From Gemmatimonadota bacterium (GTDB lineage: Bacteria; JAAXHH01): DNA of 64,000 bases. Shown here piece after piece: positions 48,000-53,762 of the stretch. Under the pieces are notes generated by a model. It made no database searches and was not told the origin of the DNA. It saw only the letters and a list, made by a program, of their open reading frames with translations. The stretch covers positions 62,001 to 126,000 of the forward strand of contig VXRC01000049.1 in the NCBI GenBank assembly GCA_009838645.1. The letters run 5' to 3'. Positions within the stretch are counted from its first letter, which is position 1, and the number at the start of each line of letters is the position of its first letter. A program made the translations under genes and the position numbers.

Positions 48000-49457
48000 A
48001 TGATCCAGATCAAAGAAATTGACCTTCGCGTCCAGAACATGCGCACGCGCATGCCCTTCAAATTCGGCATATCGACCATGACGGCCGTGCCTCACCTGGT
48101 ACTCGGCATGTTGCTCGAGGCAGATGGTCGCACGGGCTGGGGATATTCGGCTGACCATCTTCCCCCGAAATGGTTCACGAAGAATCCGGAAACCTCCCTG
48201 GAGGACGAAGTGGGGGACATGATCTCCGTCATCCGGAACGCCAGCGACGCCGCGCTGACCATCGGACCTGCGCCCAATCCGTACGCCCTCTGGCAGGAGC
48301 TGTACGAGGCACAGAAGGCCTGGGGTACCGAGCGCGGCTTTGCGCCCCTCCTGTGGGGCCTCGGCACCAGCATGGTGGAAAGGGCTATGATAGAGGCTTT
48401 CTGCCGCCTGCAGGGCACGGATTTCGGCCAGGCAATGCGCGCAAACGCCTTTGGCCTCCGACTGGAAGATTTCAACCCGAATCTGAAGGGCCTGGAACCT
48501 GCCGATGTGTTGCCCGACGCCCCGATCGCCTTCACGAACGTGCGCCATACCGTGGGGCTGGGAGACCCGCTGACCCGGCCGGATATCCCGCAGGAGGAGC
48601 TGTGCAATGACGGATTGCCCCAGTCGCTTGACGAGGTCATCGATACCTACGGCATTTCGTACTTCAAGATCAAGTTGTTCGGTGACGAAGAGCGGGATTT
48701 TGACCGTCTGAAGAAGACGGCAGGGATCATCGACGGGCGCCTGGACCGCTACGCCTTTACCCTGGACGGAAATGAGAATTACGGCGACATGGATTCGTTC
48801 CGGACGTTCTGGGAAGCATTGCGGGCAGACCGCGACCTGACTGGGTTTCTGGGGCGACTGATCTGCATTGAACAGCCTCTGCACCGCAACATCGCGCTGG
48901 ACGAAGCAGTCAGGGGGCACTTCCAGGTCTGGCGGGACCGTCCCCCCTTCATCATCGATGAATCCGACGGCGATATTGGAGACGTGGAACGGGCCGTGGA
49001 TATAGGGTACGCGGGAACGAGCTACAAGAACTGCAAAGGGGTATTCAAGGGACTTTCCAACAAAGCCCATCTGAAGTACTTGTCAAATAAGCACCCGGAC
49101 CGTGCGTACGTGTTGACGAGCGAAGACCTTTCCAACATCGCACCGATCGCACTGATGCAGGATCTCGCAGTGTTGGCCACATTAGGGGTTGACCACAGTG
49201 AGCGAAACAGCCACCATTATTTCAAAGGGATTTCGGTCTGGCCCGATGACATACAGGAACAGGTAGTGAAATGCCATCCGGATCTGTTCAGTATGCATTC
49301 GGATGGATTTCCATGCATGAGTATACACCAGGGCCGGATCAACATAGAGAGCGTCACAACCAGTCCCTTCGGGGTCGGATTCGAATTCGAAGAACAGCTC
49401 AGTGCGCAACTCACACCGCTGGACGATTGGAGTTATACTTCACTGAAATTTGAATGA
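48000..49457 (+). CDS. Enolase-superfamily enzyme (mandelate racemase/muconate lactonising type)
   Basis: This 485-residue protein has the superfamily catalytic frame: a KxK acid-base pair in YFKIKLFGDEERD, metal ligands in TLDGNENY (Asp), CIEQPLH (Glu) and IIDESDGD (Glu/Asp), and a second-side lysine in AGTSYKNCKGVFKGL. Such enzymes abstract the alpha-proton of a carboxylate to racemise or dehydrate acid sugars and related compounds. It is longer than most members by about 80 residues. The ribosome site is GAGAGGA. An MDR dehydrogenase gene follows beyond the AT-rich array block and may act in the same pathway. Confidence 0.85.
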   Translation: MIQIKEIDLRVQNMRTRMPFKFGISTMTAVPHLVLGMLLEADGRTGWGYSADHLPPKWFTKNPETSLEDEVGDMISVIRNASDAALTIGPAPNPYALWQELYEAQKAWGTERGFAPLLWGLGTSMVERAMIEAFCRLQGTDFGQAMRANAFGLRLEDFNPNLKGLEPADVLPDAPIAFTNVRHTVGLGDPLTRPDIPQEELCNDGLPQSLDEVIDTYGISYFKIKLFGDEERDFDRLKKTAGIIDGRLDRYAFTLDGNENYGDMDSFRTFWEALRADRDLTGFLGRLICIEQPLHRNIALDEAVRGHFQVWRDRPPFIIDESDGDIGDVERAVDIGYAGTSYKNCKGVFKGLSNKAHLKYLSNKHPDRAYVLTSEDLSNIAPIALMQDLAVLATLGVDHSERNSHHYFKGISVWPDDIQEQVVKCHPDLFSMHSDGFPCMSIHQGRINIESVTTSPFGVGFEFEEQLSAQLTPLDDWSYTSLKFE

Positions 49458-49545
49458 TCACATCGGTTACGTTCTGTTACGATCCGCTTCATACAGCGGT
49501 CAGCAAGTATGTCGGTTGCAAGTCTCAGTGTCTGTGTAAGTTTCC

Positions 49546-49679
49546 GTACAGTTGTACAATGCGGAATGGGTTTGTACAAAATCGAGTGAACAATGTACAA
49601 CCAATATTATGTTTGTACGAACTCAACCTGCGATCTGTACAGAACACATTACTATTGTACAATCGGAATAAACACGTAT
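49546..49679. repeat. TTGTACAA palindrome array 1
   Basis: GTAC cores lie at 49546, 49554, 49574, 49595, 49615, 49637 and 49657, with a degenerate GTAT at 49676. After the first pair the steps are 20, 21, 20, 22 and 20 bp. Most sites read TGTACAA. Sequences between cores are unrelated. Confidence 0.95.
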
Positions 49680-49948
49680 GAAACGTCAAAATAAGCACGC
49701 GAACAGCGCCCAGGACCGAATTAAGACCATTTTCGCCAGGAGTGAAGTGCTGAATTTCGCGCTTTTCAGGTCGAAAATCGGATTTTTGAGGGTAGTTTCG
49801 AGCCACCCCCTGACCCTCCGGGAACCGGATTAGAGACGAAATAGATTTACATAATATCTATTATGCGAAGTAGGGTTTTGGAATGGTAAACAATGGAATT
49901 TGAGGCCAGGAGCTATAAATCGGGCTAGAATAGAGCAAGATAGCCGAT

Positions 49949-50130
49949 GTACAAAGAAAAAGAGAGTTGTACAAAGTGCGCGAACGTATTGTACAAATAA
50001 TACGGTATTAGTACAATTGTGAATACACTACATACAAAAGTATATAGAATTGTACAACAACAAGATATACAAACCTATATGTAATTGTACATTATATGGT
50101 TTTTCTGTACAAAAAGAAGATAAATTGTAC
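49949..50130. repeat. TTGTACAA palindrome array 2
   Basis: Cores lie at 49949, 49969, 49991, 50011, 50032 (ATAC), 50052, 50067 (ATAC), 50087, 50107 and 50127. The steps are 20, 22, 20, 21, 20, 15, 20, 20 and 20 bp. AA follows almost every core and T or TT precedes most, which gives the consensus TTGTACAA. Confidence 0.95.
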
Positions 50131-50219
50131 ACATCTCTCCAAACGGATCCTCTTGGATTTCAGTTTAATCCTACCGACTTAAGTCTGTAAATCGCTACTC
50201 ACCTCACCAAGTTAGTACA

Positions 50220-51212
50220 TTGCGCCCAAGTCGACTTACCAACACCGATTTCCGTCAGATAGAATTGACGGAGTATGATCTCCCTCCTGTTCCGAATGAC
50301 GGAGTACTCGTTCAAAACGAGTATACGGCCGTTAGCGTGGGTACGGAGATATACAACTACATAAATGGCTGCGAGCCTGGAGGACAGCCGAGTTTCCCAC
50401 GAAGTACAGGTTATTGCAATGCAGGCGTGGTTTTGGATGTTGGCAAGGGTGTAAGTGGTATCGTTCCAGGCGACCGTGTTGCCGGCCAGGGAAATCACGC
50501 AAGTCATTCGATAATGTCTGGCTTAATCAACAAGGTGCCGGCGAATGTATCATCAAAGGCCGCGGCGTTCATGGTCATGGGGGCGACTTCGCTACATGGC
50601 CACCGCGTTGCCCGTCCGGAACTGGGCGAAGCCGTGGTGGTGACCGGCATGGGCATCGTGGGCCAGTTGGCCGCCACCTTTGCGAAACTGAGCGGCGCCG
50701 TACCCGTAATCGGCGTGGATCTGGATGACTTCCGCCTACAGAGGGCCCGTGAGCGCGGGGTCGACGTATGTATCAACCCGGAGAAAGAACCCGAAGTGGC
50801 CGAAGCGGTGCGCCGGCACTGCGTAGCAGACGGTGCGGACCTGGTCATCGAAGCAACCGGTGTGCCCGCTGTCTATCCGATGGCACTGAACCTGCCAAGA
50901 CTCGGCGGCCGTCTGCTCGCCCTCGGTTCCCCGCGCGGTTCGGTGGAAGTGAGCTTTTTCGGCGAGGTCCATCTGCGTGAGGTTACGATTTTGGGTGCTC
51001 ACCAGCCCAAGACGCCCGAAGAGGCCGACCTGTACTATCCCTGGAGCAAGCGCAGGGACCGCGATCTCGTACTGCGGCTCATGAGTGAAGGAAAACTGCC
51101 GATCGAGGATCTGATTACCCACGAAGCCGACCCCTCCGATTGTCAGGCAATCTTTGATATGCTTGCGGATGATCCCAGGGAGGCACTGGGGGTGGTTTTC
51201 AGGTGGGACTGA
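50220..51212 (+). CDS. MDR-family dehydrogenase, zinc-less type
   Basis: This 330-residue medium-chain dehydrogenase has a GroES-like N-terminal half with YTAVSVGTEIYNYINGCEPG and a Rossmann motif VVVTGMGIVGQLAATFAKL. DLVIEATGVPAVYPMAL and GGRLLALGSPRG also match. The catalytic Cys of the GxCGTD motif and the structural zinc lobe are absent. The only start available before an upstream stop is the TTG at 50220, and no ribosome site is visible. The gene begins 90 bp after the second palindrome array, so it is the most likely gene to be controlled by it. The substrate is unknown. Confidence 0.8.
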   Translation: MRPSRLTNTDFRQIELTEYDLPPVPNDGVLVQNEYTAVSVGTEIYNYINGCEPGGQPSFPRSTGYCNAGVVLDVGKGVSGIVPGDRVAGQGNHASHSIMSGLINKVPANVSSKAAAFMVMGATSLHGHRVARPELGEAVVVTGMGIVGQLAATFAKLSGAVPVIGVDLDDFRLQRARERGVDVCINPEKEPEVAEAVRRHCVADGADLVIEATGVPAVYPMALNLPRLGGRLLALGSPRGSVEVSFFGEVHLREVTILGAHQPKTPEEADLYYPWSKRRDRDLVLRLMSEGKLPIEDLITHEADPSDCQAIFDMLADDPREALGVVFRWD

Positions 51213-52260: not shown

Positions 52261-52518
52261 TCACGGTCCAAACAGCTTCCCAACGACCTCGTCCTTCGAC
52301 ACACCCACACCAACGAAAATTGCCACGTAAGATATAGTCCGGCTCAAAGTTCCAATCCGTACCGGGCGATGTAGCGTTATCGTTACGCTGTGCTCTTTCG
52401 TTTTCGTCGTCAGAGTTACTGTAGCATGGCTTCCACGCGTTCTACGTACACGGTAGCCGAAGTTATGGCTTAGCAGTTGGACGACCTGTTCACCGGACAG
52501 ATCTCTTGGGATCTTCAT
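52261..52518 (-). CDS. hicA: HicA-family mRNA interferase toxin
   Basis: This 85-residue dsRBD-fold protein has the HicA catalytic histidine (H31) in RRTRGSHATVTLTT, and SGEQVVQLLSHNFGYRV at the N-terminus. In this family it cuts mRNAs and is held inactive by HicB. Its start overlaps the upstream HicB-like gene by four bases, the antitoxin-first arrangement that many HicBA pairs use. No mutation of key residues is seen. Confidence 0.85.
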   Translation of the reverse strand: MKIPRDLSGEQVVQLLSHNFGYRVRRTRGSHATVTLTTKTKEHSVTITLHRPVRIGTLSRTISYVAIFVGVGVSKDEVVGKLFGP

Positions 52519-52817: not shown

Positions 52818-53762
52818 TCAGTTTTTGAGCGGTCCATCACCAATCACGGCCGCAATACGATTTTCGAGGCGATCCCTTAGTTCTTCAGGACTGCGCCACA
52901 AAATATGATTATAATGGCTCGTGTCGAAGTGTACATCATCAATAGAGTCTTTGTTACAGGTGAAAACTACAGGGATATCGAGTCCATGTGCGAATCCCGC
53001 TTCGTAGTATACACCCCCTCGGGCACCGTCTTCTCCCTGTGTAAAATCTGCGACGATAAAACGTGATCTTCTTATTTCAGCGATGATCTCATCGTCGATC
53101 CTCCCGATGTATTCTTGGTTGTCTATCCGGATTGGGCTGTATCCCGCGTTTTCAATTGCAGGTTTGATGCCATTGGTCCAGGCATCTTGCAATGACTCAT
53201 CGAACCACATGGCCACGAATGCCTGAGATGAGACGGTGGCTGCTCGCTCCAATTCAGCGAGACGAGAGTAGCCTGCAACTGTTACAATGAGACCGATCGT
53301 AGATTCGGTAGACTCTTCTAACCAACCCTTCCCAATCAAGTAGTCTGTCAGGAATTGCAACTCTTCAGAGTCAACACTTTCTGTGTAGGCAAACATGTCC
53401 GGTAAGAAGTCACTCGCGAGGAATGCCCTTCCTACATGCGGTGTCTTTTTCTGAATGTACTTCAATAGTTCATCCGCACGTGAGTGAACTGTTAAATCTG
53501 GTCGTCGTATACTCGATTCGATTTCGTTCTCGTAGGACCATATTTCCGGTCGCTCGATGCCCGATCTGCGTTGCTTGATCATCCATGTCGTTAAGCGTGC
53601 TTTTTCACGATCATCAAGTTGACCAACCATGATTTCGGCCCTTCCATCCACGAAGTACCTACCACCTGCACGGGGCGAATCTACGTTCCTGCCATCACCA
53701 CTAAATAGTTCTGTGGGCTTAGTCGGTGTACCCCAGATTGGACAGTGTGCGTTTGCGTCCAT
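52818..53762 (-). CDS. Nucleoside 2-deoxyribosyltransferase/TIR-like effector candidate
   Basis: This 314-residue protein has two parts. Residues 1-120 start with an incomplete CPIWG zinc-knuckle-like motif and a DSPRAGGRYFVDG segment. Residues about 180-305 form a nucleoside deoxyribosyltransferase/TIR-like Rossmann domain: AFVAMWFDESLQDAWTNGIKPAIENAGY, DDEIIAEIRRSRFIVADFTQG, GGVYYEAGFAHGLDIPVVF (the Glu aligns with the catalytic Glu of Ndt) and DTSHYNHILW. Such domains occur in bacterial defence proteins that degrade nucleotides or NAD. Base composition is lower in GC than the neighbours, consistent with transfer. No partner gene of a known defence system is present. Confidence 0.6.
   Translation of the reverse strand: MDANAHCPIWGTPTKPTELFSGDGRNVDSPRAGGRYFVDGRAEIMVGQLDDREKARLTTWMIKQRRSGIERPEIWSYENEIESSIRRPDLTVHSRADELLKYIQKKTPHVGRAFLASDFLPDMFAYTESVDSEELQFLTDYLIGKGWLEESTESTIGLIVTVAGYSRLAELERAATVSSQAFVAMWFDESLQDAWTNGIKPAIENAGYSPIRIDNQEYIGRIDDEIIAEIRRSRFIVADFTQGEDGARGGVYYEAGFAHGLDIPVVFTCNKDSIDDVHFDTSHYNHILWRSPEELRDRLENRIAAVIGDGPLKN

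Follow-up and report, generated by a model that had tools for sequence, protein, structure and literature searches.

The AT-rich intergenic block at positions 49546-50130 of the window (the whole 64,000-nucleotide stretch of DNA analysed here) is, judged by its sequence, a chromosome dimer resolution locus in which a canonical XerC/XerD dif site lies amid eight 24-bp dyads, three on its XerD side and five on its XerC side. Both the assignment of the candidate 28-bp element as a Xer/dif site and its association with the arrays are strong. The combination of two Xer proteins and a textbook dif with no detectable FtsK leaves it to be explained what licenses recombination, and the arrays suggest a concrete and testable answer.

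A dif site between two arrays of dyads

The window lies on contig C49 of G000, a 3.8-Mb genome in 50 contigs. The AT-rich gap is bounded by a 485-aa gene (48000-49457), which we take by its look to be an enolase-superfamily protein and for which no Pfam family was matched, and by the gene of a zinc-type dehydrogenase (50220-51212). The initial annotation had described this gap as non-coding and as carrying two palindrome arrays with steps of about 20 bp, and both descriptions are borne out. The GC content of the array block is 0.38-0.45 against about 0.60 outside, and its single open reading frame (49525-49806, minus strand) is interrupted by stops in most relatives, so that no conserved reading frame is left. 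An RNA element was considered and dropped, as the block has no match in Rfam. The coordinates and steps of the sites were confirmed, and a check against shuffled background found the block far richer in TTGTACAA-like 8-mers than the shuffles. Thirteen 8-mers match TTGTACAA at seven or more of the eight positions within 49520-50200, where 2000 dinucleotide shuffles of the block average 0.6 and never exceed 5, and the window as a whole holds 20 matches with one mismatch against 6.35 expected. The cores listed earlier are real sites, except that the one at 49546 (CCGTACAG) lacks a counterpart in relatives and is probably a chance occurrence.

Site-to-site steps are mostly 20 bp, with some of 21 or 22 and one of 15. 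The sites fall into pairs, with a constant centre-to-centre distance of 20 bp inside each pair, while the steps of 21 and 22 bp, like the single step of 15 bp, separate one pair from another. Left members of the pairs keep the right half of the palindrome (GTACAA) and right members the left half (TTGTAC); because the facing halves are the ones conserved, the unit is a 24-bp dyad, GTACAA-N12-TTGTAC, present in eight copies. A scan of gaps from 6 to 20 peaks at 12 only, and no other gap gives comparable counts. The dyads, given here without strand, lie at 49554-49577 (GTACAATGCGGAATGGGTTTGTAC), 49595-49618 (GTACAACCAATATTATGTTTGTAC) and 49637-49660 (GTACAGAACACATTACTATTGTAC) on the XerD side, and at 49949-49972 (GTACAAAGAAAAAGAGAGTTGTAC), 49991-50014 (GTACAAATAATACGGTATTAGTAC), 50032-50055 (ATACAAAAGTATATAGAATTGTAC), 50067-50090 (ATACAAACCTATATGTAATTGTAC) and 50107-50130 (GTACAAAAAGAAGATAAATTGTAC) on the XerC side. 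The order of steps is mirrored in the two arrays (20-21-20-22-20 and 20-22-20-21-20). The mirroring is real, yet it is only a one-in-two coincidence and carries little weight, because with the pairs fixed at 20 the arrays can differ only in whether the 21 or the 22 comes first.

The stretch between the arrays holds the sequence AGATTTACATAATATCTATTATGCGAAGTAGGGTTT, invariant in an alignment of the gap across the genus, which on the minus strand reads ACTTCGCATAA-TAGATA-TTATGTAAATC and has the 11-6-11 layout of dif. This 28-bp site spans 49844-49871 (minus strand), with the XerC arm at 49861-49871, the centre at 49855-49860 and the XerD arm at 49844-49854. No base of it differs among the nine genus genomes in which it is readable (100% identity), and a dif pattern search returned one match per genome in nine genus genomes, each time adjoining the arrays. 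G005 gave no match to the dif pattern, and in G007 the contig stops inside the array. In G010 the sole match, on an array-free and possibly contaminating contig (C71, L087), is a dif of E. coli type. Among the functions suggested initially, a partition or centromere-like site comes nearest in spirit, as the block is a single chromosomal landmark; it is, however, built around dif, which had gone unrecognised.

A second conserved element, approximately GAGGGTAGTTTCGAGCCACCCCCTGACCCTCCG, adjoins the XerD arm in the genus alignment (49788-49820, no strand assigned) and may bind another factor. Among the loci compared, elements like it occur only at dif loci, and none was seen beside the dif of G012 or G015, the two more distant genomes described below. 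GC skew, weak and sampled, changes sign across dif in a way that fits a terminus: in G006 the mean is +0.016 on the left and -0.010 on the right (p = 0.007), and G001 shows the same sense (p = 0.07). Samples of G006 gave only weak matches, among thousands of octamers, to a KOPS-like polarity of octamers skewed toward dif. An origin of replication was also considered and set aside, with dnaA on another contig and dif explaining the spacer better.

Geometry and conservation across genomes

The position of the dyads relative to dif is near base-exact. Counting the XerC side as negative, dyad centres lie at -104, -146, -187, -222 and -262 on that side and at +208, +250 and +291 on the XerD side. 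In the orientation of the window, the individual sites stand at -301, -281, -260, -240, -218 and -198 on the XerD side and at +94, +114, +136, +156, +177, +197, +212, +232, +252 and +272 on the XerC side. In a comparison of nine genomes, these offsets hold within a base or so wherever the side in question is assembled, and the most diverged XerC-side array is that of G008. The earlier observation that only the palindrome is conserved and the spacers differ is supported by the column identities of the XerD-side array, which reach 99% for GTAC, 74% for the other columns of the 8-mer and 46% for the spacers, with dif at 100%. A search of relatives for the arrays located the TGTACA-N13..16-TGTACA pattern across the genus at the same intergenic place, with cores and spacing kept while the spacers drift. 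The three-site version of this pattern was found in this genus only, among 384 genomes.

Genome-wide, dyads with at most one mismatch number nine in G000, eight in G006 and nine in G009, and eight, six and eight of these are at dif (22 of 26 in total); the reversed-pattern controls gave three, four and one. When five genomes were searched, no dyad away from dif was conserved and none preceded a conserved gene, and the idea that the binder might be revealed as an autoregulated gene was rejected on that result. Dyads also occur beyond the genus. G012, from another genus of the same family, has three, and G015, from another family, has six, some of them weaker; in both they lie on either side of dif, against 0.04-0.07 dyads per shuffled segment, and inverted repeats at these two dif sites were also detected independently. 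No dyads were found at dif in G014 (a third family), in five genomes outside the order or on the G010 contig. About 160 bp from its dif, G014, which lacks TTGTACAA dyads, has a perfect 28-bp palindrome, GTCATGATGGAGCATGCTCCATCATGAC (L085, 4730-4757).

It had been proposed that the sites are phased so that a protein would bind them cooperatively on one face of the helix. For each array taken by itself, the fixed spacing supports such cooperative, helically phased binding, but falls short of proof. The helical phase of the dyads relative to dif, taken across both sides, is not significant (P about 0.09).

Xer recombinases and the search for FtsK

Genes for both XerC and XerD are present; XerD scores above its NCBIfam cut-off, and XerC is slightly under that of TIGR02224 (326.7 against 335.15 bits). 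No candidate binder was found among their neighbours: apart from an HU-like protein, the products are mostly metabolic or of unknown function. In the model bacteria, FtsK is required for XerCD to recombine dif. According to a review, almost every sequenced bacterium has both XerCD and FtsK (PMC5357621). In the genomes studied here, the FtsK gamma model reached its cut-off in none of the 16 genomes of the phylum, with eight of 14 controls positive. One weak gamma match, in G013, lies inside what reads as an AsnC/Lrp-like regulator. The FtsK/SpoIIIE motor model found nothing in six of the seven genomes examined (G000, G001, G006, G012, G013 and G014), and the sole match, in G015, has FtsK and type VII secretion ATPases as its best models, far under their cut-offs, in a genome where no gamma domain was found. 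These profile searches of draft metagenome-assembled genomes are consistent throughout in detecting no divisome FtsK, though they are short of proof. The XerD of the window's bacterium, the one XerD aligned, matches E. coli XerD (1a0p) over its full length. E183 and E184 of the E. coli protein matter for activation by FtsK gamma (PMC5052618), and the residues aligned with them here are R and Q, which is consistent with loss of FtsK. G014 has no detectable FtsK either, yet its dif is without dyads, so the arrays are not the sole way to manage without FtsK.

The G002 assembly has the locus broken between two contigs (C1/C76; L092, L094), one with an intact dif and the other with the XerC arm and the centre joined to a degenerate XerD arm. 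Since the latter contig runs into genes for a terminase, a head protein and an annealing protein, a prophage of more than 20 kb is evidently integrated at dif in this genome, separating the two arrays.

A putative terminus complex and its alternatives

Since the geometry is fixed, phased and specific to dif, we infer that a protein binds the dyads, and further that one protein does so and that Xer recombination is controlled or positioned. In the mechanism we favour, each TTGTACAA palindrome would take one dimer, probably, and two dimers placed two helical turns apart would make one unit. This would be the simplest stereochemistry, and it is the way in which ribbon-helix-helix proteins, for example, work. 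The putative protein would occupy the dyads cooperatively, and the occupied dyads would form a terminus-specific nucleoprotein structure covering about 600 bp around dif. This structure could pair the dif sites of a dimeric chromosome or keep them paired, anchor them at the site of division, or do both, and XerCD recombination would thereby be licensed at the right place and time. Its presumed job would be that of FtsK elsewhere, because no divisome FtsK was found.

That a putative array-binding protein builds a terminus complex at dif and positions or controls XerCD recombination without FtsK has, in our judgement, an even chance of being correct. Such an accessory or licensing complex is favoured because no FtsK was found and because the plasmid sites cer and psi provide a precedent in which accessory complexes can control XerCD (PMC5357621). 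The main rival, possible though on balance unlikely, is a terminus anchor or organiser: the array protein, like MatP on matS or ZapT of Caulobacter, would link the terminus to the division machinery or compact it and leave the recombination reaction untouched. The locus is indeed single and centred on dif, and linkage of terminus and division has been put forward for two lineages that are unrelated, as are the proteins concerned (PMC7188993). However, the sites of MatP are scattered through a domain of 800 kb (PMC7188993), whereas every dyad here has a fixed offset of no more than 300 bp from dif, a placement that points to a link with the recombination complex. One protein may serve both as licensing complex and as terminus anchor.

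The remaining explanations fare less well. Arrays of bound protein can stall replication forks, and the terminus location suggested by the weak, sampled GC skew would suit a tightly bound array that stops forks near dif; known fork traps use polar sites, whereas those here are palindromic and stand on both sides of dif within 300 bp, which makes a fork barrier improbable. Transcriptional control of an adjacent gene is another reading; an operator for the dehydrogenase at 50220 had been among the first proposals, and the array does end about 90 bp before that gene. This reading is rejected as very improbable, given that dehydrogenase orthologues away from dif (L062, 72% identity; L063, 64%) have no dyads and that in G012 and G015, where the genes beside dif differ from those in the window, the dyads occur at dif all the same. 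Iterons of an integrated replicon had also been suggested; read more broadly, the block would be the iterons or the centromere of a plasmid or phage that had integrated. TGTACA repeats at about 20-21 bp do occur in phages and next to an initiator of plasmid type (L193, L197). This possibility is the most improbable of all and is likewise discarded: the neighbouring genes scanned include no rep or par gene, in agreement with what was first noted, the place on the chromosome is fixed throughout the genus, and iterons conserve the whole repeat, whereas essentially the palindromes alone are kept here, with spacers 46% identical.

The locus shares with bacterial XerCD/dif systems a single-copy 28-bp dif of 11-6-11 layout, two Xer recombinases and phage integration at dif; it differs in that no FtsK was found and dif is embedded in putative operator arrays. 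FtsK with a gamma domain, which is widely conserved among those systems though no part of the site itself, was not detected here. The plasmid sites cer (ColE1, with PepA/ArgR) and psi (pSC101, with PepA/ArcA) carry a Xer core beside about 180 bp of accessory sequence, to which proteins different from FtsK bind (PMC5357621), and putative accessory sites adjoin dif here too, but on a chromosome, on both sides and with a different repeated motif. With MatP/matS and ZapT the predicted binding would share sequence-specific or terminus-biased binding in the terminus region, whereas the dyads have a different motif and cluster within 300 bp of dif with no spread over a broad terminus domain. Archaeal XerA/dif apparently acts without FtsK (PMC5357621); here there are two recombinases and flanking arrays. 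In the literature searched, whose coverage excluded most subscription papers, no earlier description was found of a chromosomal dif flanked by operator arrays. The locus is a Xer/dif variant, and whether it represents a new control of dimer resolution depends on the array-binding protein. A wider and more tentative proposal, which we hold to be somewhat doubtful, is that the FtsK pump was lost from the lineage while XerC, XerD and dif remained, and that dimer resolution came to be controlled by a dedicated protein on operator arrays around dif, a chromosomal counterpart of cer and psi and a new coupling of terminus and division. The 600-bp block could serve as bait for the binding protein and as a terminus marker in uncultured genomes.

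Related motifs were seen elsewhere. A perfect 16-bp palindrome, TTGTACAATTGTACAA, or close variants of it occur in intergenic regions or at gene starts in G000 and G009 (L102-L109, L117, L120, L125 and L135), beside catabolic genes (sulfatase, short-chain dehydrogenase, mandelate racemase-like and PQQ proteins), a PIN toxin gene and an HTH antitoxin-like gene; they may mark a distinct regulon that uses the same 8-mer. TGTACA triples in IMG/VR contigs were considered and set aside, being coding low complexity, phage operator arrays or iterons, with no dif by the patterns used. Two phage contigs (L197 and L201) have 17-18 TGTACA sites each; several are TTGTACAA and stand in short 20-bp arrays. 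They may be sites for a repressor, or stoperators. Within the window, a lower-GC stretch encodes a HicA-like toxin (52261-52518, minus strand), for which no HicB was seen in the vicinity, together with a 314-aa protein (52818-53762, minus strand) with a weak nucleoside deoxyribosyltransferase-like region.
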